The translations under genes were made by a program, and so were the position numbers. DNA of 64,000 nt from Phycisphaerales bacterium (lineage in GTDB: Bacteria > Planctomycetota > Phycisphaerae > Phycisphaerales > UBA1924), in NCBI GenBank assembly GCA_029260375.1, contig JAJDDI010000071.1, positions 1 through 64,000 on the forward strand. Direction: 5' to 3'. Under the pieces are notes generated by a model that saw only the letters and a list, made by a program, of their open reading frames with translations, was not told where the DNA came from and made no database searches. Positions 46,004-64,000 of the stretch are shown here, piece by piece. The first letter of the stretch is position 1; every line of letters begins with the position of its first letter.

Positions 46004-46183
46004 GGACTAAGACTAGTGCCGGCTAATCTCTGGAACACTCTATCTCAGAGGGATTTCCGGGGTCAGCCACTCGGGTTCCCCGGCTCCGGGGAACGACTCG
46101 ACCCGCCCGGGGGGCGGATTCAATAGACCAAGGATGGTCAGGCCCGGCTCTCGCCAGGCGCCTGAAAGAAAGGAAGCTTGCCG

Positions 46184-46714
46184 ATGCGATACCCGACCCG
46201 CCCACGCCGTCAGCCCAGGGTCGCCCGGGCGTTCAGTCTGATCGAGATCATGATCGTGTTGGCGATCATGCTGGTGCTCGCGGGCATCGTGGGGTTCGCG
46301 GTCTTCGGGCAGCGCGACAAGGCGGATATCCAGGCGACGCGGGTGCAGCTCGAGTCGTTCGAGAGCGCGATGCGCGCCTTCCGCCTCGACTATCGGCGTT
46401 ATCCCACCGAGGAGGAGGGCATCGCGGTGCTCTGGAGCAAGGAGACGCTCGATCCCGAGGCGGACACCAGCGTCTGGTCGGGCTACGTCGAGACGCCCGT
46501 GGCCCGCGATCTCTGGGGCAGCGAGTGGGGCTACTCCACCGAATCCGACGAGTTCGCAATCGACGACGAGGACACGGCCGCTGGTCCCACGTTCGACATC
46601 TGGTCCCACGGCCCGGACAAGGAAGACGGGACCGAGGACGACATCCATCTCCGAACCGGCTCCAGCGACGAGGACGAGTTCGGCGGGGACCTGCTGTCGC
46701 CAGACGGGCCGTGA
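46184..46714 (+). CDS. gspG: Major pseudopilin GspG (locus 2)
   Basis: The 176-residue product has leader 'RVARA|FSLIEIMIVLAIMLVLAGIVGFAVFG' with Glu at +5, then the GspG body: 'QLESFESAMRAFRLDYRRYPTEEEGIAVLW', 'YVETPVARDLWGSEWGYSTE' and 'FDIWSHGPDKEDGTEDDI'. The Asp-rich end is the calcium site of GspG. ATG 46184 has AAAGGA about 10 bases upstream. It has its own leader of more than 250 bases and a hairpin after its stop, as the locus 1 pilin does. Confidence 0.94.
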   Translation: MRYPTRPRRQPRVARAFSLIEIMIVLAIMLVLAGIVGFAVFGQRDKADIQATRVQLESFESAMRAFRLDYRRYPTEEEGIAVLWSKETLDPEADTSVWSGYVETPVARDLWGSEWGYSTESDEFAIDDEDTAAGPTFDIWSHGPDKEDGTEDDIHLRTGSSDEDEFGGDLLSPDGP

Positions 46715-46769: not shown

Positions 46770-47474
46770 ATGATGCGCAGCAGGGGGTTCACACTCCTCG
46801 AGATACTTGTGGCGCTCGGCGTGCTGGGCGTCGTGCTGGGCCTCTCGTTGCCGGCCATCAGTGCACGCCTCGACCGCGGCTCGTTCGATGCCAACGCTGA
46901 GCGTCTGGTCGGCGCACTGCGTCTGGCCAGGGATGAGGCGCGTGACGCGGGGAGGCCCGTGAGCGTTCGGGCCAGGACGCCGGGGCTGGGCCCGACCTTC
47001 GTTGAGTGGTCGTTTGCGACAAGCCCTGCGGCGCGTGAGTCCTCGCCCCAGGGCGTGCCCGCTGAGCCCGCGTGGACCAAGCTGGTCGAGATTCCCAGGA
47101 GCTACTTTGTCTCTGATCAGGATCCGGCGGCGATCGATCCCAACGGGTCCGCGAGCGCGTCGCCCGATCCGCTCCTGAGTGATGCGGCGCTCGAGTCGGG
47201 GCTTGATGAGGGCGGCACGCGCACGCTCCCGGTGTGTGTCTTTACGCCGGGCGCCGAGGCGATCGTGAGCGGGCCGGTGTGGCTGGTGGACGCGGACCGT
47301 GCCCGCCTGCCCGAAGTGAATCGGTGGGTGAAGCTTACCCTCAGCCCCTGGACCGGGCGGATGAGCGTCGAGCGTGGGTTTCCCTCCAAAGCTGGCGACG
47401 TCCTCGCGCCCGAACCCGAAGAGCCCGGAGCACGCGGCGCCCCGGTCGCCACCGAACCGGGGGTGTCGCCATGA
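46770..47474 (+). CDS. Minor pseudopilin, GspH-like (locus 2)
   Basis: The 234-residue product has leader 'MRSRG|FTLLEILVALGVLGVVLGLSLPAI' with Glu at +5 and canonical Gly at -1. The body has the GspH-type 'DANAERLVGALRLARDEARDAGRPVSVRAR' and an Asp-rich insert. It starts at ATG 46770 (or 46773) and overlaps the next gene by 4 bases. Confidence 0.82.
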   Translation: MMRSRGFTLLEILVALGVLGVVLGLSLPAISARLDRGSFDANAERLVGALRLARDEARDAGRPVSVRARTPGLGPTFVEWSFATSPAARESSPQGVPAEPAWTKLVEIPRSYFVSDQDPAAIDPNGSASASPDPLLSDAALESGLDEGGTRTLPVCVFTPGAEAIVSGPVWLVDADRARLPEVNRWVKLTLSPWTGRMSVERGFPSKAGDVLAPEPEEPGARGAPVATEPGVSP

Positions 47475-48001
47475 CCACCCGGCGGGCGCGCGCGGTGCTG
47501 CTGCTCGAGGTGCTGGTATCGCTGGCGATCCTCGTCACGATGTCGATGGCGATCGGCGCGGTCGTGCGTGACACGAGTGGTCGGCTGATCCGCTCGGGGT
47601 TCCGGGTCGAGGGCGAGGACCAGGCGCGCAGCGCCCTCGCCCAGATCGAGGCGGGCATCGCCACACCCGAGTCGCTGAGCGGCCCGGTCCCCGCGTGGGA
47701 CCGCGAGGGCGCGTTGATCGAGCTTGGCGACGAGATCGGCCCACGCTCGTCCGACGAGATCGGGCTCGGTCAGGGAAGCGACGAACCCAGCGGCTGGTCG
47801 CTGGAGATCGAGACGCAGCCCTCGCCGTTCGACGGGCTGACGCTCGTCAGCGTGCGCGCCGTTCGGGACGACGACCCGGCTGTGAGCGCCGTGCTCCATC
47901 AACTGGTTCGGCTCGGGAGCGAGGGCGCCGACGGCGTGGGCGAACTCGACGAGATCACGGAGCGGGCGGGCGAGGGCGCCGGGCGGGGGCGGCGCCCATG
48001 A
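47471..48001 (+). CDS. Minor pseudopilin, GspI-like (locus 2)
   Basis: The 176-residue product has leader 'TTRRARA|VLLLEVLVSLAILVTMSMAIGAVV' with Glu at +5 but Val at +1. Its position between GspH- and GspJ-like genes and its 'SGFRVEGEDQARSALAQIEAGI' segment fit GspI. It starts ATG 47471 overlapping the previous stop (ATGA) and ends overlapping the next start. Confidence 0.75.
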   Translation: MTTRRARAVLLLEVLVSLAILVTMSMAIGAVVRDTSGRLIRSGFRVEGEDQARSALAQIEAGIATPESLSGPVPAWDREGALIELGDEIGPRSSDEIGLGQGSDEPSGWSLEIETQPSPFDGLTLVSVRAVRDDDPAVSAVLHQLVRLGSEGADGVGELDEITERAGEGAGRGRRP

Positions 48002-48690
48002 CCCGCGCTCGATCGAAACGCCGCGCGTTCACGCTGATCGAAGTGCTTCTCGCGCTCGCGTTGCTGGCGGGCGTTGCGGGCGGCGCGCTCGGGCTGCTCT
48101 CAGATCTCACACGCCGGCAGGCGCACATCCGGACGCACAGCGAGCGGTCCCTGGACGGGGGCGCCCTGATCGATCGCCTCGAGCGGGCGCTCCAGACTAG
48201 CTACGCCCAGAACGCGGCGGGCGAGCCGGGCGTTCGGGGCGACGACCATTCGATCCGGGTGATGCACCGGGGCGTGGTTGGGCATGCCGAGATGGCCGTG
48301 GGCGATCGGCGCACGCTCGAAGCGCACTGGTCCGAGACCGACCACGTCGTGACGGGCACGTTCTCGGGCGACGGCGTCGAGACCCAGTCGGAACCGCTGG
48401 CACGCCGGGTTGAGCGTCTGCGGCTGCGGTACTTCCACGGCTCCCGCTGGCTGTCGTCGTTCGACTCGGTTGGCGCCGGCGAGCTTCCCAGCGCGATCGA
48501 GATCGCGATCTGGTTCGAGCCCGCGGGCGTTGACGCAAGTACGGCGCCCGAGACCAGCCCGCTCGACGACCGGATCGACGCGTCACTGGTTCCTGAAGAG
48601 GCCACGGACCTGCCGACGCGAAGCCCGGACCGTGTGCGCACCATGGTTGTGCCCGACGCGCCGGGCGCGTCGTGGGAGGTCGGCGGATGA
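47998..48690 (+). CDS. Minor pseudopilin, GspJ-like (locus 2)
   Basis: The 230-residue product has leader 'KRRA|FTLIEVLLALALLAGVAGGALGLL'. The body 'GGALIDRLERALQTSYAQNA', 'LARRVERLRLRYFHGSRWLSSFDS' and 'LPSAIEIAIWFEP' matches GspJ, where the measured strand order ends in an 'I.I..' edge. ATG 47998 overlaps the previous stop and the end overlaps gspK. Confidence 0.85.
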   Translation: MTRARSKRRAFTLIEVLLALALLAGVAGGALGLLSDLTRRQAHIRTHSERSLDGGALIDRLERALQTSYAQNAAGEPGVRGDDHSIRVMHRGVVGHAEMAVGDRRTLEAHWSETDHVVTGTFSGDGVETQSEPLARRVERLRLRYFHGSRWLSSFDSVGAGELPSAIEIAIWFEPAGVDASTAPETSPLDDRIDASLVPEEATDLPTRSPDRVRTMVVPDAPGASWEVGG

Positions 48691-50120
48691 GCGACGCATA
48701 CCCATCCAAGCCGGCTCGGTCCCGCGCTCTGGTCATCCTCGTCGTGATGGTGGTCGTCACCCTCTCGGCCCTGATCGGTTCGTCCGTGCTGCTCATGGGC
48801 GAGAACGCCGGTGTCTCCGCGGCGCACGACCGGCGTTCGACACAGTCCAGGCTCGCGGCGTGGTCGGGCGTGCAGGCGGTCATGTCGCGGCTTCACGAGC
48901 AGCGAGACGACCTGCTCGACGGCGCGGCGCCCGTCCTCCCCGAGTCGTGGACCTTCCCCATCGAGCAGGGCGCCAGGGCGCCCGCCTTCCGCGTGGTCGG
49001 GCTGGGAGGGCAGCTTGCGGCGACCAGCGAGAACGCCAAGCTCGACGTCAACCTGGCCAGCGCCGAGATGCTCGAGGCCCTCCCCATGATCGACACGGCG
49101 CTGGCGCGGTCGATCGTCGAGGCCCGACCGTTCGAGAGCGTCGCGGAGCTGGGGTCGGTCCCCGGGGTCACACCCGAACTGCTTTACGGGGAACGAGCCG
49201 ACGGGCTCGAGTCCGGCGCGATTCCGCTCGTGGAGGTTCTGACGGTGTTTTCGTTCGATCCGAACATCCAGCTCGGAGCCGGGGAGCAGGGTGACGAGCA
49301 CCGGGGCGACCGGCGGGTGAATCTCGGGCTCGGGTGGTCGGACGCGTTGGAGGACGCCGTCGTCGATCGCTGGGACGAATCGGCCGCGGAGTTTCTGCGG
49401 ACCCTCTTCGAGCAGGGGGAGAACCTGAAACGCACCAGCGACGTCGTCGCGCTGTACCGGCGATTCGGCGCCAGCCCGGAAGACTGGGTCGAGGGGCTCG
49501 ATGCGTTGACGACGATCGACAGCGAGCATGTCCGGGGGCTGGTGGATCTGAACCGGGCGTCTCCCGAGGTGCTCGGCGCGCTGCCGGGGATCGACGAGCG
49601 TCAGGCGCGCGACATCGCCGACGCGCGTGAGCGGCTCGGGCTCGACCAACGCCGCTCGATCGTCTGGCCCGTCATCGAGGGCATCCTGACGCCCGACGAG
49701 TTCCAGGAGGCGTGCGACTGGCTGACGACGCGCTCGATGCAGTGGCGCGTCCGGATCGAGGGTGGCGCCCTGGTCGGCGATGAGGACTCGGACGAGTTCT
49801 CGGGCGGCGCCGAGATGCGGGACGCCAGTGTACTTGAGTGCGTGATTGACGTGTCTTCCAGACGCCCGCGTGTCGCGTACTTGCGTGATGTCACGGGCCT
49901 CGAGTTGGCGTTGGTCATGGGCGGCACGTCGGAGGACAAGATCGACCCGACCGACGAGGTTCGAGACCCGGCGACCGACGAGGCGTTCGACCCGGCGGGC
50001 GATGACAGGCCCGCTCCGCCCGAGCCGGTTCAGGACGAGAGCGAGCCGGAAAGCCACGGCGAGGATGTCGGCGGCGGGCGCATCGGGCGGTGGGCCGTGG
50101 GCAAGGGGGACGGGTCGTGA
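48687..50120 (+). CDS. Minor pseudopilin, GspK-like (locus 2)
   Basis: The 477-residue product has a short leader and helix ('ARSRALVILVVMVVVTLSALIGSSVLLMGE') and a large helical region with helix-hairpin-helix pieces ('LDVNLASAEMLEALPMIDTALARSIVEARPF', 'VDLNRASPEVLGALPGIDERQARDIADARERL'), the mark of GspK. It sits at the pseudopilus tip. It is longer than usual (about 330) because the helical domain is doubled. The C-terminus is an acidic tail. It overlaps neighbours at both ends. Confidence 0.88.
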   Translation: MSDAYPSKPARSRALVILVVMVVVTLSALIGSSVLLMGENAGVSAAHDRRSTQSRLAAWSGVQAVMSRLHEQRDDLLDGAAPVLPESWTFPIEQGARAPAFRVVGLGGQLAATSENAKLDVNLASAEMLEALPMIDTALARSIVEARPFESVAELGSVPGVTPELLYGERADGLESGAIPLVEVLTVFSFDPNIQLGAGEQGDEHRGDRRVNLGLGWSDALEDAVVDRWDESAAEFLRTLFEQGENLKRTSDVVALYRRFGASPEDWVEGLDALTTIDSEHVRGLVDLNRASPEVLGALPGIDERQARDIADARERLGLDQRRSIVWPVIEGILTPDEFQEACDWLTTRSMQWRVRIEGGALVGDEDSDEFSGGAEMRDASVLECVIDVSSRRPRVAYLRDVTGLELALVMGGTSEDKIDPTDEVRDPATDEAFDPAGDDRPAPPEPVQDESEPESHGEDVGGGRIGRWAVGKGDGS

Positions 50121-51604
50121 AGCGGTCTGGAACCACCATCCTGATGGACTTTGACCGCGATCACCTGGGTGCGATCGGCGTGCAGGGGCAGGGCGCGTCG
50201 GCGCGCGTCTCGGGCTGGGGACTGATCAAGCGCCCTGACAGCGTCCAGGCGGGCGAGCCCGAGGCTCTCGGGCGATGGCTGCGGCTGCAACTCGATGAAG
50301 CCGGGCTCGGGGGGGGGCGTGTCGTCATCGGCGCCCCGCGGTCCGAGGTCGTGCTCAAGCTGCTGAGCGTTCCGGGCGGGCGGGCGCTCGATGAGCACGA
50401 GCTGGCCAACGTCGTCCGCCTGCAGATGCTGCGTCAGACGGCCGTCGCGATCGAGGACGCGGTCTTTGATTATGTCCCCTTCGATGTGGAGGGCGATTCG
50501 ACCGACCGCCAGGTGCTTGTGGGCGCGATCCCGGGCGAGAAGCTCGCCTGGCGCCGGCGCGTGGTGGAGAGTGCCGGGCTCAAGCTGGGAGGGCTGCGCC
50601 TTCGGGCCTCGGGGATCGCTGAGCTTGTGGGTTCGTCGGCGGGCGCGGGCGACGCGCCGGCGCTGGGCGTGGGCATCGGACCCGCGTCGGTCGAGTTCGC
50701 GCTCGTCGAGCACGGGCGCCTGGTGTTTGCCCGGACCGCGGACCTTCCCGAGGGCGAGAGGGATGTCGCGGCGCTTGCCCGGCGGATCGCGGTCGAGGCC
50801 AAGCGCACGGCGATGAGCTTCCGCGTGGCCCAGCGGACGCCTGATGTGGGCTCCGTCGTCGTGCTCGGCGACGACGCGCTGGCGCGGAGCGTGGCCCTGC
50901 GGTGCGCGGAGGTTCTCGAGGTTCCCTGCACGACGCTGGTCCCCCCGATCGACGGTCTGGCGGAGCTGCCACCGGAGGCGGCGCGAGCGATGGCGCCCCT
51001 GGTCGGGCTCGCGATTCAGGACGCGCGCGGGCGACCGGGCCTGGACTTCATCCACCCCAGGAAGGCGCCCGACCGGATGGGGACGCCGCGACGCGCGGCG
51101 CTGCTGGGTGTGCTCGCCGTCCTGCTGATCGGCGGGGGGGGGTTCATCGCCAGGTCGATGACGCTCAGGTCGCTCAACGCCGAGCTCGAGGCGCTGAGCG
51201 CCAGGAGCAAAGCGCTGCAAAGCGACTATCTCGACGCGTTGGCCCGGGACGCGAGGGCGGAGCACCTGGAGGCGTGGATCGAGGCGTCGCCGCAGTGGAG
51301 CGTGCAGCTCGAACAGGTTGTCGCGCTCCTGCCCGCGCCCGGCGAGGGCCCTCTGGACCAGCTGATCTGCGCCAGCGAACCCGTCGTCGGGTACTCGGGC
51401 GGGAGCAAGGCGCCCTACCCAGGGTCGTGGACCTCGAACTCGGGCGAACGCATCACGCTCGACGGGCGCTCCGTCTCGCGTGACGTGTCCACGGCGCTCC
51501 GGGAGCGGATCCTGGCGGACGGTCGGTACGGACTGAGCGTTCGCGGCGCCGACGTCGCGGACCGGTTCTCGATCGAGCTTCGCGCTGAGGGGGGCGGGCC
51601 GTGA
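50117..51604 (+). CDS. GspL-like assembly protein (actin fold plus membrane and periplasmic part)
   Basis: The 495-residue product has a cytoplasmic actin-like half ('TILMDFDRDHLGAIGVQG', 'VVIGAPRSEVVLKLLSVPG', 'LGVGIGPASVEFALVEHGRL'), one membrane helix ('AALLGVLAVLLIGGGGFIA') near residue 340, then a coiled coil and a small periplasmic domain. This is a PilM-plus-PilN fusion, the definition of GspL. It should link the GspE ATPase to GspF and GspM. GTG 50117 overlaps the gspK stop. Confidence 0.85.
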   Translation: MKRSGTTILMDFDRDHLGAIGVQGQGASARVSGWGLIKRPDSVQAGEPEALGRWLRLQLDEAGLGGGRVVIGAPRSEVVLKLLSVPGGRALDEHELANVVRLQMLRQTAVAIEDAVFDYVPFDVEGDSTDRQVLVGAIPGEKLAWRRRVVESAGLKLGGLRLRASGIAELVGSSAGAGDAPALGVGIGPASVEFALVEHGRLVFARTADLPEGERDVAALARRIAVEAKRTAMSFRVAQRTPDVGSVVVLGDDALARSVALRCAEVLEVPCTTLVPPIDGLAELPPEAARAMAPLVGLAIQDARGRPGLDFIHPRKAPDRMGTPRRAALLGVLAVLLIGGGGFIARSMTLRSLNAELEALSARSKALQSDYLDALARDARAEHLEAWIEASPQWSVQLEQVVALLPAPGEGPLDQLICASEPVVGYSGGSKAPYPGSWTSNSGERITLDGRSVSRDVSTALRERILADGRYGLSVRGADVADRFSIELRAEGGGP

Positions 51605-52593
51605 GCGATCGCCGACGCCAGGTCATCTGGGGCGGTGGGGGGCTGGCGCTGGTGGTCGCGCTGTACCTGCTCGCGCGGGTGTTCGTGCTTGGTCCCGCGT
51701 GGGAGATGCGGGGCAAGATCGCCAACGCCCGTGAGATCACGGGCGGGCTCAGCACCCAGCTCGAACGCTACGAGAACGCGACAGACCGCCTGCGGGCGGT
51801 GGGCTCGACCATGCTCGCCGCGGACCGGGACGTGCTCGAGCACCGCCTGCGGGCCGGCCTGAGCACGATCGCGACAGACTCGGGCCTGTCGGAGGTGGTC
51901 GTTTCAAACTCGCCGCCGCGCGCGGTCGCCAACCCGGCCGCACAGGTGCGGATGAGCGGCGGCTGGGGCAAACTCCGCGATCGACTCCGCCGCCAGACCG
52001 ATTTCTACGTCGTGCGGGGGCGGGTGCAGGGGACGGGCACGCTGGAGTCGGCGATGCTCACGCTTGCAGCGATTGAGGCGCAGGGCTGGGTCCACCGGAT
52101 CGAGGGGCTGACCCTCCGCCCGGTGGGAGCCGAGCGGGAACTGGTGGAGTTGAAGGTCGATTTCGCGATCGCGATGGCGCCGGACCTGGCGCCCAGGGAC
52201 GCGCCGGCTCACGCGCCCGACGCGAGCGACACCGGGGACGAAGCGATCGCGGGCCTGACTCAGATCGCCCTACGCGGCTTATTCCGGGTCCCGCCCAGGG
52301 CGCCCGAGCCGGCGGTGGTCGTTGAAACCAAGCCCGAGCCCAAGCCCGATCCGGCGCCAAAGCCCCCGCCGTACGAGAACTGGCGATTGGCCGGTGTCAT
52401 GGGCGGAAACCGGGTTGAGGCGGTGGTCGTCCACACCTCCAACGGCAAGTCCCGGGTCTTGGAGCCGGGCGATCGGTTGATGGGGGCAACGTTCGAGGAG
52501 GGCTCGGGCGAGCGGGCGGTCTTCCGGATTGATGAGAAGCGGTACGAGATTCTTCTGGGTAAGTCACTCGCAGATCGACGCGAGCTGAAATAG
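51601..52593 (+). CDS. GspM-like protein fused to a GspC/PilP-type domain
   Basis: The 330-residue product has one N-terminal membrane helix ('IWGGGGLALVVALYLLARVF'), a GspM/PilO-type periplasmic domain (about residues 45-195), a Pro/Lys-rich linker ('ETKPEPKPDPAPKPPP') and a C-terminal beta domain ('LAGVMGGNRVEAVVVH', 'VLEPGDRLMGATFEEGSG', 'FRIDEKRYEILLGKSL'). The last part matches the GspC homology region that contacts secretin N0. Fusing the two would give one bridge from the inner membrane to the giant gene that follows 64 bases later. GTG 51601 overlaps the previous stop. Confidence 0.78.
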   Translation: MSDRRRQVIWGGGGLALVVALYLLARVFVLGPAWEMRGKIANAREITGGLSTQLERYENATDRLRAVGSTMLAADRDVLEHRLRAGLSTIATDSGLSEVVVSNSPPRAVANPAAQVRMSGGWGKLRDRLRRQTDFYVVRGRVQGTGTLESAMLTLAAIEAQGWVHRIEGLTLRPVGAERELVELKVDFAIAMAPDLAPRDAPAHAPDASDTGDEAIAGLTQIALRGLFRVPPRAPEPAVVVETKPEPKPDPAPKPPPYENWRLAGVMGGNRVEAVVVHTSNGKSRVLEPGDRLMGATFEEGSGERAVFRIDEKRYEILLGKSLADRRELK

Positions 52594-52657: not shown

Positions 52658-55600
52658 ATGCAGCGGCAACTCTCAGCACGCGCCATCGCGGCGTGGAGCC
52701 TCGCGGCGACGGCCGGCCTGGCGGTCTCGGCCCGGGCGGGCCTCCAGCCCGATCCAACTCCCGGCTCCGGATCCGCCCAAGATACGGGCGATATCGGCCA
52801 GACCCAGGCCCCTCGCATCCGGTTCAACTTCATCGAGCTGCCCTTCAGCGAGGTGCTCAACTTCATGTCGCGCGAGTCGGGCCTGCCCGTCATCCGCGAG
52901 GCGCCCCTGCCCCCGGGGTCGATGACCTTCATCAGCGCTGCGGACTACTCGCTGGCGGAGGCTCTTGAGATCCTCAACCTCAACCTGGCGATGCACAACG
53001 TCCGCCTGGAGCGCGACAGCAAGTACCTCGCGCTCCGCTCGCTCGAGGACGCGGCCCGCCGCCCTACGCCCGTGCTCAGCCCCGAGGAGCTCGAGGGGAT
53101 CGACCCGAGCGAGTTCCTGACGATCTACCTGCCGCTCAACAACGCGATCGCGTCGCAGGTGAGCGAGCGGATTAGCCCGCTTATCAAGCCCCCGGGCATG
53201 GTGCAGGCGATCGACCAGCAGAACATGCTGATCATCGTGGACACCGCGGCCCAGTGCCGGCGCCTGCGTGAGATCGTCAACCAGATCGACAGCGTGCGCC
53301 CGGCGGACATCGACCTGCGCGTCTTCCCCGTGACGAGTACGACCGCGTCCGAGCTGGCCGACTCGCTGCGGGCGCTGGTGCCCGAGCGCGACCAGGTGAT
53401 GACGATCGACAAGAACGGGCTGCCCAAGATCACCGAGGACGTGTCCAAGCCGCCGCTCAAGATCCAGGCGGACGAGCGTCTCAACGCGGTCGTCGTGGTG
53501 GGGCCAAGCCAGCGGATGGGGACGGTCGAGGATCTGGTTCGTCTGCTCGACTCGCCCGAGGGCGGCAGCGCGGGCGGGACGCGGATGATGACCTTTACGC
53601 TGAGCCAGGCGGACGCCAACAGCGCCGCGGCCCAGCTCAACTCACTCTTCCAGGCGGTGCCCGATCGCCGAAGGCCCACGGTCCAGGCCCTGCCCGACGT
53701 GGGCAAGGTCGTCGTCGTCGCCTCGCCGGACCTGCTGGCCCAGTCTAAGGCGCTGCTCGAGGAGATCGACCCGGGGCTCGGATCGGGCGCGGGCGACACG
53801 GGGGATCGGTCCGCCCGCGTGCTGCCGCTGGAGCACGTGACCTCGCAGCAGGCCGAGCAGATCGTCCGGCGCCTGCTCTCGCCCCGCCAGACGCAGATGA
53901 TCCGGTTCGCGCCGCTGCCCGGGGGCTCCGGGCTGGTGGTCTCGGGCCCGAGCGCGGACGTCGAGCAGTTCGAGCAGCTCGTGCGCGGCATCGACGTGCA
54001 GCCCGACCGGCGGCATGAGGCGCGCGTCGTACGCATCAGCGAGGGTGATCCGGCGCAGATCCTGGAGATGGCCCGGGGCGTCGAGACGCTCACCGGCGAC
54101 GAGGCGCGTGACCCCGTGCGTGCCATCCTCGATCCCGAGTCGCGCACCGTCACGCTCGTGGGCACGCGTGAGGGCGTGTCACGCTTTGAGCTGCGCCTCA
54201 AGACGGCGCAGTCCCAGGCGAGCGTTGAGCTCGAAACGCGCACCTACCGCCTTGACAGCGTGAACCCGACGCAGCTCAGTGGGCGCCTGTCCCGACTCGC
54301 CAGGCCCCTGCTCACCCCGGCCGACGGGACACCCTATCGCGCGCCCTCCTTCGAAGCGCTCGATGAGCTTGGCACGATCGTCGTCCGCGCGCTCCCGGAC
54401 CAGTTCTCAACGATCGAGGGCCTGATCGACCAGCTCGACGGCGAGCAGGGCGCCGACCGGCGATTGCAGGTGCTCGACCTGCAGGGCAACGACCCCGAAT
54501 CGACGCTGGCCCGGGCGATGGCGCTCTACGAGGAGCAGACCAGGGGCCTGCCCGCGAGCGAGGCGGGTCCGATCGACGCGGAGATCGACAAGGCCGCGGG
54601 GAAGATGATCGTTCGCGCGAGCGCCGCGGGGATGACGCGGTTCACCGGGCTGCTGCGCCAGGTGCAGCAGCTCACGCCCCCGGCGCGCACGACCCGGATT
54701 ATTGACATCCAGCAGGTGGACGCCGCGGGCCTGCTCGAGCCGCTGCGCGAGTTCCTCGCGTCGGGCGACCCGGTGGACCCTGGGCGCGAAGCGCCCGAGC
54801 CGACGCTTCGGGTGATCGAGCGGACAAACTCGGTCATGGTGACGGCAGAGGACCTGCAGCACCGGGTGATCGCCGACTATGTGCGGAGGCTCGACAAGAT
54901 CGAGCCCAGCGATCTACCCCCGCTGCGACTGCTCCAGCTGCGCACGGCCGACGCGGTGAACATCGCGTCGATGCTCCAGCAGCAGTACAACAAGCGTCCC
55001 TCGGCGGACCGCCTGGCACGCCCGGTCGAGGTCCGCGCCGACGGGACGACCAACACCCTGATCGTCGCGGCCCACGAGGAGTTGCTCGCGGACATCCGCG
55101 GCTTCGTCGATGAGCTCAACACCGACGCGGACGAGCCCGAGCGGATCACGTTCCTGTTCCCGCTGAAGGTAGCTCGTGCCGTGGACGTGGCGCAGGCGAT
55201 GGACAAGCTCTACCCGCTGCCCCCGATGCCGCGGGACCGCTACAACCGCCCGATGCCCTGGCTGCAGGAGCAGAAGGAAGTGACGGTCAGCGCCGATCCG
55301 TCGAGCAACAGTCTGATCATCGACGCGGTCGCGGACCGTCGCGAATCGCTGGAAGAACTCGCCGAGAAGCTCGACCGGGTGGAGGTACCCCCGGTCGCGG
55401 ATCTGCGCACGTACCGCGTCGTCGAGGCGGATCTCAACGCGGTGGCGCGGATGCTCTCGGGCCTGGCGCGACAGGGCACGCTCGCGGGCCCGGCGCAGGC
55501 GGGCAAGGCCAAGGTGCAGGTCGTGATCGAGACCGAGCAGGCCAGCTCGACGCTCATCGTCGCCGGTGACGAGGTCACGTTCGCGAAGGTCGAGCAGGTG

Positions 55601-58600
55601 CTCCAGTCGCTCGAGGCGGCGCCCATCGAGCGCGGGCTGCGGATCGTGCCCATCGCCAACGCCCAGGCGTCGGTGATCCGCGACCGGGCGATGGCGATCT
55701 ACGACTCGCAGGTCGCCAACATCCCAGGCGCCGGTGGCGTTGATGTCTCCGTCAACGACGAGACCAACACGCTCGAGGTCGTCGCGGACGAGAACGCGAT
55801 GGTCCGGTTCATGGGGATCCTCGACGAGCTGCAGGACCAGATCGGCAGCGCCCGCGAGGTGCGGCTCATCGAGCTGCAGCTCGCGCCCGTGGGCGAGGTG
55901 ATCGGGTTCTTGGAGGAACTGGTCGATGCGACGGACTCGCTGCGCATCGGTGGTGGCCCACGTCCTGTCTTCGAGCCCATCGAGACGACCAACTCCATCA
56001 TGGTCGCGGCCCAGCCCGACCAGTTCGCCATCATCGAGCAGCTCGTCCGCTCGCTCGACGCCCAGCAGACGGGCGACCGCCCGCCGTTGCGGATTCTCAG
56101 GCTCCGTTCGACCGAGGCGAGCAATCTGGCGCAGGTGCTCAACCGCTCGTACGCGCAGCGCCCGGTGGACGAGCGCACGCTCAAGCCGGTCAACATCCAG
56201 GCGGACCCGGCGACCAACACGCTCATTGTGTCGGCCCACCCCGACGTGCTGCCCGAGATCGAGTCGATCATCTCCGAGCTCAACGACGCGCAGTCGTTCG
56301 ACGCGTCGGCCCGCCAGATCCGCATCTTCCCGCTGCGCGTGGCGCGGGCCGAGGAGCTGGCACGCACGATCGACGAGATGTACCCCGAGCCCCCGATGCC
56401 GCGGGATTCACGCGGGCGGGCGCGCCCGGACCTGCAGCTTCCCAAGGAGATCTTTGTCCGGGCGGACCGGGCGACGAACTCGCTGATCGTGGACGCCCCG
56501 ACCGAACGCCTCGCGGGGTTTGAGCAGATCGTCGAGCAGCTCGACAAGGCGAGCCTGGGCGCGGACGTCGAGCTGCGCACCTACCGCGTCGCCCGGGCCG
56601 ACCTGGCGGCTGTCGAGCGGACCATCCGTGATCTCGCGGCAAGCGGCGCCCTCGCGGCGACCGGGCAGACGCCCGTCACCGTTAGCACCGAGCCCGCGAG
56701 CCGCACGCTCATCGTGTCCGGTCCCAGTGACGTGTTCGAGCGCATCGAGTCGGTGCTGAGTGAGGTCGACGGCGGCGCCAACCGCCCGACGACCGGGCTC
56801 AAGATGTACGCCCTGGAGCACGCGCGGGCCGAGCGCCTGGCGCCGCTCTTGGAAGGATTGCTGGCGACGCGGCTGCGCGAGCAGCAACTCTCGGGCGATC
56901 AGGCGATCATCGGCGAGCCCGACACGCTGCTGGACGTCGCGTCGGACGGGGCGAGCAACACGCTGATCATCTCGGCGCCCGAGTCGATCCTGGACATCGC
57001 CGAGCAGCTGATCAACGCGCTCGACACGCAGGCCGCGAGCGTGGGACGGGCGGTCATCCGTGTGTCGCCGCTGACGTACGCCGAGGCGAGTGCGGTGGCG
57101 CAGACCATCAACCAGGCCATCCCGACGATCGAGCTGCCCTCGGGCGGACCGGTGAGCGTGATCGCGGCCGCGGGGTCCAACGCGCTGCTGCTCTCGGGCG
57201 CCGAGGCGGACCTGAAGAAGATCGAGGGGCTTATCGAGTCGCTTGACGTGCAGCCGTTCGACCCGGAGAAGCCCGCGGTCGAGACGTTCGCACTCGAGCA
57301 CGCCGACGCACGGTCGATCGCGTCCACGGTCGAGCGTCTGCTCGTCGATCAGCAGCAGACGGACCCGAGGGTGCTCGCGTTGCAGTTGCGGTATAGCCGG
57401 GGGCAGATGCCGGTCCAGCCCAAGATCCGCGTCGAGGCGGAGGGGCGGACCAACAGCCTGATCGTCTCGGGCCCGGGCTCGACGATCGAGCTGGCGCGCA
57501 CGCTCATCGACCGGCTCGACCAGGAGGGCGAGGACCCCGGGCGTTCGGTCGTCACATTCTCTCCCGCAAAGGGCGACCCAACGCGGCTGGCGCAGACGGT
57601 CAGCGAGATCATCGAGGCCACCATGCCGCAGGGGCGGCGGCCGCTCGAGCTGACGCCCGAGGCATCGTCGGGCAGCATCGTCGTGATCGGCACGGACGAG
57701 CAGGTGGCCCGCGCGGTGGCGCTGCTGCAGGAGCACGACGACCGGACGGTGGCGATGCCGCTGGTCGAGGTCCGTTCGTTCGAGATCGTGCACGCCGACG
57801 CGCAGACAGTATCGCGCACGGTGCAGTCGCTGCTGAGTGATCGGTCTCGCTGGCCCGAGGCGTTGATGCGTGCCGAACGGGCCGGGCTCTCGCTGCCCCG
57901 CCCCGCGCTCGAGGCGGACGGACAGACCTCTCGCATTATCGTCAGCGCTCCGAGCGCGCTGATGGACATGGCGGGCGAGCTGATCGCGACGCTGGACCAG
58001 CCCGCGTCGGGCGGCGGGGTCGAGGTGCGAGTCTTCACGCTCAAGGAGGGCGACGCGGACTCGGTCGCGCGGGCGTTGCAGCAGGCCTTGAGCGTGGGCG
58101 CGAAGCCCTCCGAGCCGAGGCCGAGCGTGACGTCGGAAACACGGAGCAACTCGATCGTCGTCGCGGGCTCGCGTGAGCGGGTCGAGCAGGCGATGACGCT
58201 GATCTCGACGATGGACAGCGTCGCGGTCGAGCCGAGCGAGCTGGGCGTGCGGACGATCTTCCTGACGCACGCTCGGGCCGAGTCGTTGGCGCCGATCGTC
58301 GAGGGCGTGCTGACGCAGGAGTCGGTGCTGAGCATGGCGCCGGACTGGGGTCGCTGGCAGCTGGCCAACAGCATGATCAACCGGGGGCAGAGCCCCGAGT
58401 TCAACGGCGTGAAGGTCGCGCCTGAGCGCCGCCTCAACGCGCTGGTCGTCAGCGCCCCGCTGCCGCTGCTGGAGCTGGCCGAGCAGGTTATTTCTGGGCT
58501 CGATGTTGATCCAGGTGACGGGCCGGGCGGCGGGCGCATCGTGCGGGTCATCACGCTCGTCAACGCTGACGCGCAGGAGCTGGCCGGGAACATCGAGGCG

Positions 58601-61600
58601 GTGTTCGGCGAGGACGAGTCCGGGGCCGCGGCGCCCACCGTCCGCGTGGACACGTCCAGCAACTCGCTGATCGTGCGCGCCACCAGCGAGCAGCTCGAAA
58701 CAATCCAATCGCTCGCCCAGCGGCTGGACTCGGCGACCCTCTCGACGCGATCGCAGATGCGCCTGATCCCGCTGGACCGCTCGCGGGCCGACGCGGCGGA
58801 GATGGCCCAGACGCTCAAACGACTTCTCGAACAGCGCGGGGCGGTGCAGGTCGAGGTGATTTCCGCCGAGGAGCTGCTGAGCGATTCTCCCGAGCCGGGA
58901 GCGTTTCGTCCGGTCGAGACCAACCCCTTCATCACCCCGCTCTGGGCGGACCTGTTCCGCCACGCGATGGGGCTGCTCACGCTGCAACCGATCGAGGCGG
59001 ACGAGCCCAGCGCGAGCGCCCGGGTGACGATCGCGGTGGACCCGGTGAGCAACACGCTGATGGTGATCGGCTCGCCGCGGATGACGGATCGGATCGCGTC
59101 GCTGGCGCAGGAGTTGGCCCGCCAGATGCCCGCGGAGCCCACGGGCGTGCGGATCGTCGAGCTGCCCGATCAGGCGGACCCGGCGCGCATGGCGCAGGTC
59201 GTCAACCAGACCATCCGCCAGGTCGGACGGACGAGCGCGACCAACCTGGGCGGGTTTACCGGGCGCGTCGCCGTGAGCGCGGACGTGCAGGGACAGGCGC
59301 TGATCGTGTGGGCCAACGACACCGACTTCGGGAGCGTGCGCGACCTGGTCTCGGGGCTGGCTCGCCTGGGCAAGTCCGATGAGCTGTCGGTGAAGGTCTA
59401 CCCGCTGGCCAACGTCTCGGCGCGGTCCGCCGCGACGTCGGTGCGCGACCTGGTCAGCCCTGTGCCCCAGGGTCGCCAGGCGCAGCGCGTCCGCACGCTG
59501 GACCTGAGCGTTACGGGCGACGACGGCTCGGTCGTGCGCCGCACGATCGACCCGTCCCGAGTTGGCGTAACGACCGACCCGAGCCAGACCGCGCTCATCG
59601 TCACGGCCCCCAGCGAGGCGATCCAGCTCATCGACCGCTTCGTCGAGCTCATTGATCAGAGTCCCGCGGGCGAGCGCCTGGCGATCCGCCAGTACACACT
59701 CGAGCACGCGCGGGCGACGGCGCTTTCCCGAACGCTGCAGGCGCTGTTCGACGCACAGCGACAGGGGCCTGGCGCGAACGAACGCACGCGGGCCAGGTTT
59801 GTCGCCGACGACCGGACCAACGCGCTGCTGGTAACCGCGTCAAGCGAGCAGCACGCGGAGGTGCAGCGGCTGCTGTCCGCCGCGGACATGACGATGGAGG
59901 ACGACGGCCTGGAGCTGGCGATCATCCCGCTCCAGCTCGCGCGTCCGTCGGCGGTTCGCCAGATCGTCGAGCAGGTCATCGTCGGGCGCGACCCGGGGAT
60001 GCGTGAGAAGATACTGATCTCAGCCCAGGATAACTCGGGCGTGTTCGTGGTACGGGCGCCCGAGGCGGAGATGGCCCAGATCCGTGAGATCGTGGCGCAG
60101 GTCGATACCTCGGAAGCGGCCGCGTACCCGGTCCGCTCCATCAAGCTTGAGCGAGCCGATGCGCTGAGCGTCGCCCGCTCGCTCCAGGAGTTCTTCCAGA
60201 ATCGCGCCCGCGTGGGGCGTGCCAGGAACAACGGGCGGGGCGGCGGGGACGCCGCGATCGTGGGCGATCGGCTTTCCGGCACGCTGGTGATCGCGGCCAG
60301 CGACGAGGACTTTGCGCAGATCAGCGAGCTGGCGTCGCAGTTCGACGCGCCAGCGATCGGGAAAGAGGTTCAGTACAAGATCATCCCGCTGCAGAACGCC
60401 CGGGCGACGGACATCCGCGATACGGTGCAGAGCATCGCCTACGAGCTGCAGTGGGAGCGTACCTCCCGCTCACGCGGCGGGCAGGACTCGGGCGGTGAGG
60501 ACCGCGTGCTCGTGGAGGTCAACGACCGGACGAACACGGTGCTGGTCTTCGGGCAGGGCAAGACGCTCGAGGTGGTCCAGAACATCATCGCCGACCTGGA
60601 CCGGGCGCCGGCCGAGACCGAGAAGCGGATCGTCAAGGCGATCGCGGCCGAAGGCGCGGACCTGCAGGCGCTGGCGAGACTGGTCGAGGAGGTCACCGCG
60701 TCGCCGGGCTGGCGCTGGTGGATGGGCCCGGACCTGGAGCAGGTCACGGCGGAAGTGGACGCGGACCGGCGCCTGCTGATCCTCGTGGGCGTCAAGGCCC
60801 GCGTGGACGAGGCAAGCTCGTACGTCGAGGAGATCATCGCGGCCGGCGGTGACGACGGACGGTCCATCGTCCCGATCCGCCTTGAGCACGCCCGCGCCGA
60901 TCGGGCCGCGGGTTCGTTGCAGCGGTTCTTCCGCGACCGGGCGAGGGCGGAGGGGCGGCGGGCGGACAGCGTCGCGATCATCGGATCACGCGAGGGCAAC
61001 CTACTGATCGTCAGCGCCGACGATGAGGATCTGGAGATCGTGCGGAGCCTGATCGAGCAGATCGACCTGCCCGACCTGGCCGAGGACCGGCAGGTCCGGG
61101 TGTTCGCGCTGAGCAACGCCGAGCCGCGCGAGACGGCGCAGACCATCAACCAGATGATCCCGCGCACCGGGCGAGACGAGGACCGGGTGATCATCACCTC
61201 GCAGGGCTCGATGCGGTCGCTGATCGTCTCGGCCCCGAGCGAGCGGATGGAGGAGATCGGGTCGCTCATCGCCCGCCTGGACGTGCTCCCGGGCGCCGAG
61301 CAGGGGCAGATCGAGACGGTCGCCCTCGGCGCGGCCCGGGCCGAGGCGGTCGCTCGCGAGCTGGCGTCGGCGCTGCCCGAGAGCGTGCGCGTCGAGATCA
61401 CGCCCGTGCCCCGGACCAACTCGATCATGCTCACCGGTTCGCGCGAGGCGATCCAGATCGCCCGCGAGCAGATCAAGGCGCTGGACGTGGACTCGCCCAG
61501 CGCCCCGGTCGAGTTCCGCCGGTTTGTGATCCAGCACACGACCGCGACTGACGTGGCGTACTCGCTGTCGGCGCTCATCCGCAACCGCCCGCGCGACGAG

Positions 61601-64000
61601 GGCGAGCCGATCCCGGTCGTGGACGCGAGCTTCAACGACGACGTGCTGAGCGTGACGGCCGGCAGCGACGAGATGCGGTTCATCGAGTCGCTCGTCGAAC
61701 AGCTCGACGTGCCCCAGCAGATCGCGCGGACGACCGAGTTCATCAAGCTCGAGTTCGCGGGCGCGGCGCAGGCGGCCGACGCGCTGAAAGTCTTCTACGG
61801 CCCATTCGCCCCCGAGGCCCGCACGCCCGCTGAGCGCAACGTGACCATCGTTGCCGACCCAGCCTCCAACTCGCTGGTCGTCAGCGCCGACGAGAGCGTC
61901 TGGTCCGGCCTGCGGGGGCTGCTGGAGAAGCTCGACACCGCGGAGTACGACACGACGCAGCAGCTCGTGGTCATCCAGCTCAAGCACGCGAGCGCCACGA
62001 GCGTGGCGCGGGCCCTGAACGAGGGCCTGCGGGCGCCGCTGGAGAACCAGCTCGAGCGTGAGCGTGTGCGGCTCGAGGCCGAGCGTCGCGGGCAGAACGG
62101 TCGGGACAACGCGTTCGCCCCGGCGGTGCTCATCGACGCCGAGGGGGTGCCGACGGTCTCGGCCGAGCGTGAGACCAACTCGCTGATCGTCTTCGCGGGG
62201 CGCAAGGACCTGGATCGCATCCGCGGGATCGTCGAGCAGCTCGACGTGCCCGACATCCTCAAGCTCCCCGAGGCGAGGCTGATCGCGCTTCGTTCCGGGC
62301 GGGCGAGCGTGCTGGCCGAGGCGGTTCGCCGGGTGTTCCTGGCGCAGGACGACCCGGACAACCCCCGCCGCGTCATGGTGTACGGCGATGACACGGCCAA
62401 CGTGATTATTGTCCGGGCCGAGGACGAAGAGTTTGAGCAGATCGCGCAGCTCGCGGACCAGCTGCAGAACCAGGCGGCGACCGCCGAGTCCACGCCCCGC
62501 GTGATGAAGCTTCGCAACGTCCCCGCGGCCCGCGTGCAGCAGACGGTCCTTCGCACCTTTGCGCCCATCGCGCAGCAGCGGGGCGAGAGCTTCGCCGTGG
62601 AGATCGACCGCGGTTCCAACAGCCTCGTCATCGCCGCGAGCGAGACGCTCTTCGAGCAGATCGAACGCATCATTGAGGAGCTCGACAGCGCGGGCGAGCC
62701 CGAAGACGGAGAGCAGGGCGGCGGGATCGGGCAGAACATCTCGATCGTCGAGGTCGCCAACAACGACCCGGCGGACATCGTGGCTTCCTTGGTCGCCCTG
62801 GGCGTGACGCAGAACCAGCCGGCGGACCGTCCGGGTCTGGTCGCCGAGCCGGTCCGTCTCGTCGCGCTCACGACGCGCCGGGCGATCAGCGTGCTGGCCA
62901 ACCCGGCCGACGGACGCGCCATCGAGCGGCTGATCCGAGAGCTTGACACGCAGCCGATCCGCCCTGACGAGCAGATCAAGGTCGTGAAGCTGCACCAGGC
63001 CGAGGCGCAGTCTCTTGCGCGTCTGCTGGGCGAGATGCTCACGCTCGACCCCCGCGGCGAGCGCTCGGGCGCCGCCAGCGGGCTCGTCGAGCAGGTGCGC
63101 CGGATGAATCTGATGCGGACCGGCATCGACGACGCGCCCGTGCGACTGGATCTGACCCGTCCGATCCGCCTGATCCCCGACGCGCAGACCAACGCGATCA
63201 TCGTGGGCTCGTCGGCGGCCAACGCGATCGCGGTCGCCGAGCTGATCCGGACCTTCGACACGCTGCCCATGGGCGAGGCGGTCACCATCCGCGTCTTCCC
63301 GCTCGAGAACGCCTCGGCGATGCGCCTGCGCTCGATCATCGAGGACCTGTTCCGTCGCGGCGAGGAGATCCGGCGCATCCCGGGCACGACACGCCAGGGA
63401 TTGCCTACCACGACTGTCGGGCGGGCGCTGGCGGGTTCGATCGCCGTCACGGTCGATGAGCGCACCAACGCGCTGGTCATCGCGGGGCGTGAAGAGGCGT
63501 TGGCGCTTGTCGAGGTGCTGCTCAAGGACCTGGACGACGGCGACGCCGACCGCGGCTGGATCGAGACCGAACTGACGGTGCTCGAATACGCCGACGCGGT
63601 CTCGCTGGCTGAGAAGCTCAGGCGCGTGCTGGTCGAGGGGCTGGGCGAGACGCCCGACGAGATCGGGCTGCGGACGCAGGTCGGGCGGCTGCGGGTGGCG
63701 CTGCGCGAGGGCGGCGAGGCGATCGTGAGCGACCGCTACGCGTTGATGTCCGGGCTGGTCATCGAGCCCGAGGAGGACCTCAACGCGCTGATATTGGTGG
63801 GCACGCGATCGAACCTCGACGCGGTCGGCGAGCTGGTACGCATCCTCGACGTTGAGCAGGCCTCCGCGGCCGGCACCGTCCGCGTGATCCCGCTCGAGCA
63901 CGCATCGGCCGACCGCGCGGCGCGGATCATCGAGGACGTCTTCTCCCGGCGCGAGGGCCAGCGCTCGTCGCGACCCGAGGACCGCGTCATCGTCTCGGTC
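52658..64000 (+). CDS. Giant secretin-like (GspD-position) protein with about 44 N1-like domains, 3' end outside window
   Basis: The frame from ATG 52658 (GGAG 8 bases upstream) stays open through the last base, giving at least 3781 codons. Residues 1-30 are a signal peptide. Residues about 45-120 match the secretin N0/STN domain ('IRFNFIELPFSEVLNFMSRESG', 'LAEALEILNLNLAMHNVRL'). From about residue 150 on, one small domain of roughly 80 residues recurs about 44 times, each with an 'x-A-D/E-x-L-A-x-x-L' helix, a '(T/S)N(S/T/A)LIV' strand (for example N799, N1187, N3174, N3604) and an 'I..LI..LD' helix: the secretin N1/NolW-type fold. Ordinary GspD/PilQ secretins are 600-800 residues with two to four N-domains. 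It occupies the gspD place at the end of the gspF-M operon. The pore-forming secretin domain, if present, is beyond the window. A pure periplasmic scaffold without pore is the alternative. Confidence 0.9.
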   Translation, partial: MQRQLSARAIAAWSLAATAGLAVSARAGLQPDPTPGSGSAQDTGDIGQTQAPRIRFNFIELPFSEVLNFMSRESGLPVIREAPLPPGSMTFISAADYSLAEALEILNLNLAMHNVRLERDSKYLALRSLEDAARRPTPVLSPEELEGIDPSEFLTIYLPLNNAIASQVSERISPLIKPPGMVQAIDQQNMLIIVDTAAQCRRLREIVNQIDSVRPADIDLRVFPVTSTTASELADSLRALVPERDQVMTIDKNGLPKITEDVSKPPLKIQADERLNAVVVVGPSQRMGTVEDLVRLLDSPEGGSAGGTRMMTFTLSQADANSAAAQLNSLFQAVPDRRRPTVQALPDVGKVVVVASPDLLAQSKALLEEIDPGLGSGAGDTGDRSARVLPLEHVTSQQAEQIVRRLLSPRQTQMIRFAPLPGGSGLVVSGPSADVEQFEQLVRGIDVQPDRRHEARVVRISEGDPAQILEMARGVETLTGDEARDPVRAILDPESRTVTLVGTREGVSRFELRLKTAQSQASVELETRTYRLDSVNPTQLSGRLSRLARPLLTPADGTPYRAPSFEALDELGTIVVRALPDQFSTIEGLIDQLDGEQGADRRLQVLDLQGNDPESTLARAMALYEEQTRGLPASEAGPIDAEIDKAAGKMIVRASAAGMTRFTGLLRQVQQLTPPARTTRIIDIQQVDAAGLLEPLREFLASGDPVDPGREAPEPTLRVIERTNSVMVTAEDLQHRVIADYVRRLDKIEPSDLPPLRLLQLRTADAVNIASMLQQQYNKRPSADRLARPVEVRADGTTNTLIVAAHEELLADIRGFVDELNTDADEPERITFLFPLKVARAVDVAQAMDKLYPLPPMPRDRYNRPMPWLQEQKEVTVSADPSSNSLIIDAVADRRESLEELAEKLDRVEVPPVADLRTYRVVEADLNAVARMLSGLARQGTLAGPAQAGKAKVQVVIETEQASSTLIVAGDEVTFAKVEQVLQSLEAAPIERGLRIVPIANAQASVIRDRAMAIYDSQVANIPGAGGVDVSVNDETNTLEVVADENAMVRFMGILDELQDQIGSAREVRLIELQLAPVGEVIGFLEELVDATDSLRIGGGPRPVFEPIETTNSIMVAAQPDQFAIIEQLVRSLDAQQTGDRPPLRILRLRSTEASNLAQVLNRSYAQRPVDERTLKPVNIQADPATNTLIVSAHPDVLPEIESIISELNDAQSFDASARQIRIFPLRVARAEELARTIDEMYPEPPMPRDSRGRARPDLQLPKEIFVRADRATNSLIVDAPTERLAGFEQIVEQLDKASLGADVELRTYRVARADLAAVERTIRDLAASGALAATGQTPVTVSTEPASRTLIVSGPSDVFERIESVLSEVDGGANRPTTGLKMYALEHARAERLAPLLEGLLATRLREQQLSGDQAIIGEPDTLLDVASDGASNTLIISAPESILDIAEQLINALDTQAASVGRAVIRVSPLTYAEASAVAQTINQAIPTIELPSGGPVSVIAAAGSNALLLSGAEADLKKIEGLIESLDVQPFDPEKPAVETFALEHADARSIASTVERLLVDQQQTDPRVLALQLRYSRGQMPVQPKIRVEAEGRTNSLIVSGPGSTIELARTLIDRLDQEGEDPGRSVVTFSPAKGDPTRLAQTVSEIIEATMPQGRRPLELTPEASSGSIVVIGTDEQVARAVALLQEHDDRTVAMPLVEVRSFEIVHADAQTVSRTVQSLLSDRSRWPEALMRAERAGLSLPRPALEADGQTSRIIVSAPSALMDMAGELIATLDQPASGGGVEVRVFTLKEGDADSVARALQQALSVGAKPSEPRPSVTSETRSNSIVVAGSRERVEQAMTLISTMDSVAVEPSELGVRTIFLTHARAESLAPIVEGVLTQESVLSMAPDWGRWQLANSMINRGQSPEFNGVKVAPERRLNALVVSAPLPLLELAEQVISGLDVDPGDGPGGGRIVRVITLVNADAQELAGNIEAVFGEDESGAAAPTVRVDTSSNSLIVRATSEQLETIQSLAQRLDSATLSTRSQMRLIPLDRSRADAAEMAQTLKRLLEQRGAVQVEVISAEELLSDSPEPGAFRPVETNPFITPLWADLFRHAMGLLTLQPIEADEPSASARVTIAVDPVSNTLMVIGSPRMTDRIASLAQELARQMPAEPTGVRIVELPDQADPARMAQVVNQTIRQVGRTSATNLGGFTGRVAVSADVQGQALIVWANDTDFGSVRDLVSGLARLGKSDELSVKVYPLANVSARSAATSVRDLVSPVPQGRQAQRVRTLDLSVTGDDGSVVRRTIDPSRVGVTTDPSQTALIVTAPSEAIQLIDRFVELIDQSPAGERLAIRQYTLEHARATALSRTLQALFDAQRQGPGANERTRARFVADDRTNALLVTASSEQHAEVQRLLSAADMTMEDDGLELAIIPLQLARPSAVRQIVEQVIVGRDPGMREKILISAQDNSGVFVVRAPEAEMAQIREIVAQVDTSEAAAYPVRSIKLERADALSVARSLQEFFQNRARVGRARNNGRGGGDAAIVGDRLSGTLVIAASDEDFAQISELASQFDAPAIGKEVQYKIIPLQNARATDIRDTVQSIAYELQWERTSRSRGGQDSGGEDRVLVEVNDRTNTVLVFGQGKTLEVVQNIIADLDRAPAETEKRIVKAIAAEGADLQALARLVEEVTASPGWRWWMGPDLEQVTAEVDADRRLLILVGVKARVDEASSYVEEIIAAGGDDGRSIVPIRLEHARADRAAGSLQRFFRDRARAEGRRADSVAIIGSREGNLLIVSADDEDLEIVRSLIEQIDLPDLAEDRQVRVFALSNAEPRETAQTINQMIPRTGRDEDRVIITSQGSMRSLIVSAPSERMEEIGSLIARLDVLPGAEQGQIETVALGAARAEAVARELASALPESVRVEITPVPRTNSIMLTGSREAIQIAREQIKALDVDSPSAPVEFRRFVIQHTTATDVAYSLSALIRNRPRDEGEPIPVVDASFNDDVLSVTAGSDEMRFIESLVEQLDVPQQIARTTEFIKLEFAGAAQAADALKVFYGPFAPEARTPAERNVTIVADPASNSLVVSADESVWSGLRGLLEKLDTAEYDTTQQLVVIQLKHASATSVARALNEGLRAPLENQLERERVRLEAERRGQNGRDNAFAPAVLIDAEGVPTVSAERETNSLIVFAGRKDLDRIRGIVEQLDVPDILKLPEARLIALRSGRASVLAEAVRRVFLAQDDPDNPRRVMVYGDDTANVIIVRAEDEEFEQIAQLADQLQNQAATAESTPRVMKLRNVPAARVQQTVLRTFAPIAQQRGESFAVEIDRGSNSLVIAASETLFEQIERIIEELDSAGEPEDGEQGGGIGQNISIVEVANNDPADIVASLVALGVTQNQPADRPGLVAEPVRLVALTTRRAISVLANPADGRAIERLIRELDTQPIRPDEQIKVVKLHQAEAQSLARLLGEMLTLDPRGERSGAASGLVEQVRRMNLMRTGIDDAPVRLDLTRPIRLIPDAQTNAIIVGSSAANAIAVAELIRTFDTLPMGEAVTIRVFPLENASAMRLRSIIEDLFRRGEEIRRIPGTTRQGLPTTTVGRALAGSIAVTVDERTNALVIAGREEALALVEVLLKDLDDGDADRGWIETELTVLEYADAVSLAEKLRRVLVEGLGETPDEIGLRTQVGRLRVALREGGEAIVSDRYALMSGLVIEPEEDLNALILVGTRSNLDAVGELVRILDVEQASAAGTVRVIPLEHASADRAARIIEDVFSRREGQRSSRPEDRVIVSV
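53100..64000 (+). repeat. Array of about 44 divergent N1-like coding repeats
   Basis: The repeat is visible at protein level only; DNA identity between units is low apart from shared codons for the 'TNSLIV' strand. Mean spacing of the strand motif is about 245 bases, with units ranging from about 200 to 380 bases because of loops and inserts (for example near 58300-58450 and 58860-59030). The first few units (53200-54600) have weaker strand motifs ('QNMLIIVD', 'LNAVVVVG'), and later ones are closer to consensus. No unit is identical to another, so the expansion is old. Confidence 0.85.

Follow-up and report, generated by a model that had tools for sequence, protein, structure and literature searches.

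A giant GspD-type secretin with fifty ring-type N-domain units in a Phycisphaerales type II secretion operon

Results and discussion

We describe an extreme, new form of the known secretin GspD, about seven times the usual size, which about 70 of the Phycisphaerae genomes sampled encode. Textbook secretin channels have two to six rings in the periplasm. The giant protein is the gspD product of an otherwise ordinary type II secretion system (T2SS) operon (gspF-G-H-I-J-K-L-M-D), with a greatly enlarged N-module in front of a secretin domain. We consider it rather probable that this expanded N-module stacks into a periplasmic tube more than 100 nm long, which would run from the inner-membrane platform to the outer-membrane pore.

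Extent and integrity of the giant gene

Within the 64,000-nucleotide stretch of DNA analysed here (the window), the initial annotation had noticed a reading frame from position 52658 that stayed open for at least 3781 codons. The ATG at 52658 on the forward strand indeed opens a frame without a stop through 64000 (3,781 codons within the window), and on the same contig (C71 of genome G000, 85,304 bp) this frame runs on beyond the window to a stop at 66415. Neither a stop nor a frameshift, the outcomes that the annotation had named as speaking against its reading, was found in the 4,585 codons. The product has 4,585 aa, 496 kDa and a pI of 4.8. The source is a draft genome of 3.39 Mb in 99 contigs and 92% complete.

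DNA of 68–69% GC yields long frames easily, as the relative G004 (locus L044) shows: antisense to its giant gene runs an open frame of 4,634 codons. ORF length alone is therefore no evidence. The third-position GC of the giant gene is 92%. An artefact of assembly, annotation or frame, in which genes were fused or a repeat was inflated, could be suspected from the draft metagenome-assembled genome (MAG) in 99 contigs, from the spurious long frames that high GC produces and from frame breaks in another genome, G038. However, recognisable domains fill the entire frame, and no exact direct repeat in the 13.8 kb gene is longer than 19 bp, which makes repeat-driven misassembly unlikely. The gene also recurs in dozens of independent genomes, and several giants sit in single-contig genomes. 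In comparison with a same-genus genome, dN/dS was 0.07 (1,579 shared residues) and low in every segment, which points to strong purifying selection on the units. On conservation, repeat length and dN/dS we rejected an artefact or a chance frame, whose probability we consider close to nil. The G038 giant (L190, G038:C1:2223700-2243699), from a long-read MAG of two contigs, has about 56 units in series with two frame changes, which reflect either sequencing error or a pseudogene.

Domain composition of the giant protein

Searching the full protein against Pfam, we obtained significant Secretin_N matches over 39 stretches (1,230 bits) and, close to the C-terminus, a single Secretin domain matched over its full length (PF00263; 176.5 bits, model positions 1–168 of 169). 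Both searches had been proposed as checks in the initial annotation, the first on the units and the second past position 64000, and both agreed with its assignment. By using a repeat (N1) model purpose-built from the giant protein and its relatives, we resolved 50 head-to-tail units, which make up about 90% of the protein and continue without gaps up to the secretin domain. As a control, the same model found exactly three units (N1, N2 and N3) in E. coli K-12 GspD. The mean pitch of the units is about 82–84 aa with a 5–95% range of 67–112 aa, since linkers and loops vary, and the mean unit-unit identity is about 27–29%. The array ends at contig position 65479, and 44 complete units fall inside the window, matching the count of about 44 that had been made from the letters alone.

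The single N0-like domain that had been proposed was not detected with Pfam alone. An N-terminal profile built from 18 sequences aligned, from N0 on, with the solved GspD chains 5wq7 (N0-N1-N2, E 2.7e-22), 5wln and 6hcg, and this bears out the proposal. By eye, the N-terminus of the translation looks like a Sec signal peptide. The features of the giant gene inside the window are as follows.

52658..64000, + strand: giant GspD-type secretin gene, N-terminal 3,781 of 4,585 codons (frame, Pfam, equivalog model)
52658..52738, + strand: signal-peptide-like N-terminus, MQRQLSARAIAAWSLAATAGLAVSARA (translation judged by eye)
52814..53060, + strand: N0 domain, limits approximate (profile match to solved GspD chains; fold match to GspD N0-N1-N2)
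53075..64000, + strand: array of N1-type ring-building units, units 1–44 complete and unit 45 partial (N1 model, Pfam, AlphaFold2)

Identity as GspD and the T2SS operon

Among the secretin models, the GspD equivalog TIGR02517 scored best on the giant, at 1,211 bits (cut-off 351), a score that stems in part from the many repeated stretches. The PilQ model TIGR02515 reached 406.7 bits, above its own cut-off and far below GspD, and the SctC model also scored well below the GspD model. Profiles of the C-terminus and of the mid-array region matched solved GspD best (E 3e-65 and 3.5e-22, respectively). The giant is thus almost certainly a T2SS secretin. A type IV pilus secretin PilQ was rejected, as gspF-M rather than pilMNOP are the neighbours and the PilQ model was not the best-scoring one. 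The surrounding genes are listed below.

41424..43100, − strand: gspE/pilB-type secretion ATPase (MshEN + T2SSE; Pfam T2SSE 422 bits)
44735..45922, + strand: gspF inner-membrane platform protein (Pfam T2SSF 158 bits; synteny in relatives)
46178..46714, + strand: gspG major pseudopilin (Pfam T2SSG, N_methyl)
46770..47474, + strand: gspH minor pseudopilin (Pfam GspH, N_methyl)
47465..48001, + strand: gspI-like minor pseudopilin (position, hydrophobic prepilin-like N-terminus, synteny; no Pfam match)
47998..48690, + strand: gspJ-like minor pseudopilin (prepilin-like N-terminus RRAFTLIEVLLALALL; operon position)
48672..50120, + strand: gspK minor pseudopilin (Pfam T2SSK; synteny; co-occurrence with the giant)
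50090..51604, + strand: gspL-like (PilM-fold) platform protein (weak Pfam PilM_2, E 2e-4; synteny at most giant loci)
51601..52593, + strand: gspM-like protein, proline-rich linker and C-terminal domain (synteny; C-terminal domain alignment)
contig C71 67028-74131 (L058:1028-8131), downstream of the window: pstS, pstC, pstA, pstB operon (sequences read)

The placement of a secretin in the gspD position, as the initial annotation had it, is therefore borne out by the secretin domain, the equivalog match and the gspF-M genes upstream, and the C-terminus and neighbours unrelated to secretion that would have spoken against it did not appear. Its further suggestion of a possibly undescribed secretion or envelope-bridging system fell away: the operon is recognisable as that of a T2SS, and we rejected a novel secretion system. 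Downstream, the giant gene is followed by a small lipoprotein-like ORF and then by the pst-type phosphate uptake operon.

The gspF-M order 5' of the giant also appeared in most relatives with enough upstream sequence, so the conserved neighbourhood that had been suggested as a check in other Phycisphaerae does exist. In the window's family, gspK was present in 10 of 10 giant-bearing genomes, and in one of the 20 genomes without a giant match. In this exception, gspK lies less than 900 bp from a contig end, and the secretin was probably cut off. Members of the family from many genera (G119, G125, G140, G146, G011, G218 and others) have neither the giant nor gspK. The T2SS of this family thus seems to come and go as a single module.

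No gspC (PF11356) match above cut-off was present in the source genome (92% complete). The C-terminal domain of the gspM-like protein (about the last 75 aa) gave a weak T2SSB (GspB) match in 3 of 21 members (best E 3.4e-4), and a PDB search with it returned no T2SSB- or GspC-type match. For a GspC HR domain on this protein, the Pfam and PDB searches gave only the weak GspB-type match. We suggest that the C-terminal domain may replace GspC in the contact with N0; if so, N0 would lie near the inner membrane and the array would span the rest of the periplasm.

Origin and conservation of the array

For unit 1 of compact GspD proteins, the best match in most giants is unit 1, and for the last unit it is the last; the compact second unit finds its matches in various inner units of giants. 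Since unit 1 thus corresponds to N1 and the last unit to N3, it is the N2 region that expanded. In the window's family, 49–50 of the 50 units found their reciprocal best match in the unit of the same number in all six fifty-unit relatives tested, against a chain of about 11 units expected by chance. Exactly 50 units were found in 8 of the 18 full-length genes of this family, and relatives with fewer units lack whole blocks; G001, for example, lacks units 7–15 and 33–34.

Colinearity drops markedly beyond the closest families. Between families, the middle of the array is less well conserved than unit 1 and roughly the last dozen units, and every giant family examined can be seen to share the characteristic loop-length series of the last dozen units, together with the last units themselves. 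When the secretin domain was placed in a tree, the multi-unit proteins all fell into a single clade, split from compact GspDs and E. coli with a support of 0.999. These comparisons fit best with an ancestor that may have had perhaps at least 10 units and been extended separately in several lineages.

Units 8–11 of the giant resemble units 13–16 (an offset of five units, about 54.6–56.8 kb), the sole clear internal block duplication. Recent tandem amplification was rejected, as the units are old and diverged and only this single block duplication is clear. A two-unit periodicity in loop length, of which there was a hint within the window's family (z of about 2–3 at lags 2, 4 and 6 in the source genome), was also dropped, because it is not general across families.

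Spread among planctomycetes

We surveyed the phylum Planctomycetota. An open frame of 3,100–5,018 aa with a secretin domain was found in 21 of 40 genomes, the window's own among them. For 297 Phycisphaerae genomes, 150 matches were listed, 72 of them in frames of 3,000 aa or more. A further 38 lie in frames of 1,400–2,000 aa, for which family f19 with about 15–17 units is typical, and other matches are compact (685–1,000 aa, about three units). The unit number of the giants ranges from 30 to 63, the largest having 6,169 aa and 63 units. Outside Phycisphaerae, most of the expanded members have 1,200–1,500 aa. Moderately expanded secretins have 7–13 units in other classes and 15–17 in families f17, f19 and f21.

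According to the GTDB titles of the best 80 matches, the nearest loci come from uncultured organisms, almost all marked as metagenome-assembled. Most titles name Phycisphaerales, Phycisphaeraceae or Phycisphaerae, some only Planctomycetota, Planctomycetaceae or bacterium, and two are cyanobacterial, presumably mislabelled. Secretin-domain ORFs of another group, about 1,300–1,630 aa long, occur in G038 (L060, G038:C1:2481587), G026, G030, G032 and G034; in the one examined, that of G038, the N1 model found no N1-type unit. In the literature outside subscription journals and preprints, we found no published description of giant or multi-N secretins in planctomycetes or Phycisphaerae.

Predicted structure and arrangement of the units

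We modelled two parts of the giant with AlphaFold2: seven mid-array units (41 sequences; mean pLDDT 80.7, pTM 0.31) and the N-terminal part, made up of N0 and units 1–4 (mean pLDDT 75.2, pTM 0.43). Every unit modelled, the seven of the mid-array among them, showed the beta-alpha-beta-beta-alpha fold of the GspD ring domain, and the top Foldseek matches of both models were secretins. Superposed on GspD as rigid multi-domain blocks, both models fitted poorly (rmsd mostly 9–47 Å). Given the low pTM and the poor superposition, single-chain models leave the mutual packing of the units undefined.

The N-domains of known T2SS secretins form stacked rings that lie between the platform in the inner membrane and the barrel in the outer membrane (PMC6882859, PMC10550240), and planctomycete periplasms can be greatly enlarged (PMC5394234). 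Together with the precedent of Thermus PilQ, this makes a secretin tube lengthened about tenfold the simplest reading. Duplication in the N2 region would have enlarged the N-module from three units (N1-N2-N3) to about 50, while N1 stayed first and N3 last. As in other secretins, about 12–15 copies would assemble, each unit forming a ring and successive rings stacking; N0 would be kept close to the inner membrane, and the secretin barrel would sit in the outer membrane. With a rise of about 2.5–4 nm for every ring, a value extrapolated from PilQ and other known secretins, we infer a tube of more than 100 nm and, for 13–15 copies, a complex of 6.5–7.4 MDa. The role of such a tube would be to lead folded exoproteins, along with a long pseudopilus, through an unusually wide periplasm. 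A length above 100 nm far exceeds any described secretin, and would require a matching pseudopilus and a peptidoglycan gap; both points count against the tube.

As the main alternative, the array could work as a string, in which N0-N1, the last few units and the secretin domain form the usual short channel while the other units serve as an extensible tether between the inner-membrane platform and the outer membrane, across a periplasm of variable width. The units are predicted to be well folded with undefined mutual orientation in the single-chain model (pTM 0.31), the pitch varies with linkers and loops, the middle units are less conserved across families than the first unit and roughly the final dozen, and unit number differs among giants from 30 to 63; all of this would suit a tether. 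A passive spacer, however, needs neither the one-to-one identity of 49–50 of 50 units over divergent genera nor strong purifying selection, and the unit fold is that of ring-building domains, so we regard the string as rather unlikely. A scaffold that binds polysaccharide, peptidoglycan or cargo, whose length would set binding capacity instead of distance, strikes us as very improbable. Planctomycetes do degrade polysaccharide and take glycans into the periplasm (PMC5394234, PMC8882080), and the unit surfaces are diverse, as the low mean identity indicates. Yet only secretin N-domains were matched, besides overlapping matches to KH-like folds, and the position in a T2SS operon is conserved. 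Of the arrangements raised in the initial annotation, among them a ring stack, a periplasmic ladder and a span across a wide envelope, homology and whole-unit conservation favour the ring stack.

As a tentative extension of the ring-stack reading, stacked-ring tubes of more than 100 nm may bridge a greatly widened periplasm in uncultured Phycisphaerae, with their length tuned by the gain or loss of whole units, and shorter members of the clade might sit in the membrane-linking crateriform structures of other planctomycetes. No envelope images of the giant-bearing uncultured lineages were found in the literature.

Comparison with known systems

Divergent genera have kept the expanded array of 30–63 ring domains unit for unit, which implies that protein length is under selection. 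Unit number is then a countable feature that can be linked to how membranes connect across the very wide planctomycete periplasm, and it bears on how folded proteins or fibres cross it. If the ring stack is real, it would be the longest channel of the secretin type known, its length written in the number of ring units that the gene encodes.

Crateriform structures of Planctomycetes, the phylum of the giant, link the outer and cytoplasmic membranes and are associated with pili-like fibres (PMC5394234), but cultured Phycisphaeraceae lack these structures of other planctomycetes (PMC8882080, PMC7783415), and a link between them and expanded secretins is speculation. The moderately expanded planctomycete secretins fall in the same clade as the giants and, in Phycisphaerae, share with them a C-terminal loop-length fingerprint; they differ in having fewer units and an upstream operon that is less well recognised with the window's proteins.

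With GspD itself (E. coli GspD, Klebsiella PulD; PDB 5wq7, 6hcg), the giant has in common N0, N1-type units and the secretin domain, as well as the operon with gspF-M and its best structural and profile matches. It differs in having 50 ring-type units instead of three and 4,585 aa instead of 650, and its genome has no separate GspC above the family cut-off. The range of two to four N-domains that the initial annotation had given for known secretins is too narrow, as Thermus PilQ reaches six stacked rings that span most of a wide periplasm (PMC5745081), in a channel about 35 nm long (PMC4463427). Like the giant, the PilQ of Thermus thermophilus has extra N-rings tied to a wide periplasm (PMC5745081, PMC4463427). 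It is, however, part of a type IV pilus system, with N0 plus five ring-type units, whereas the giant has about ten times more.
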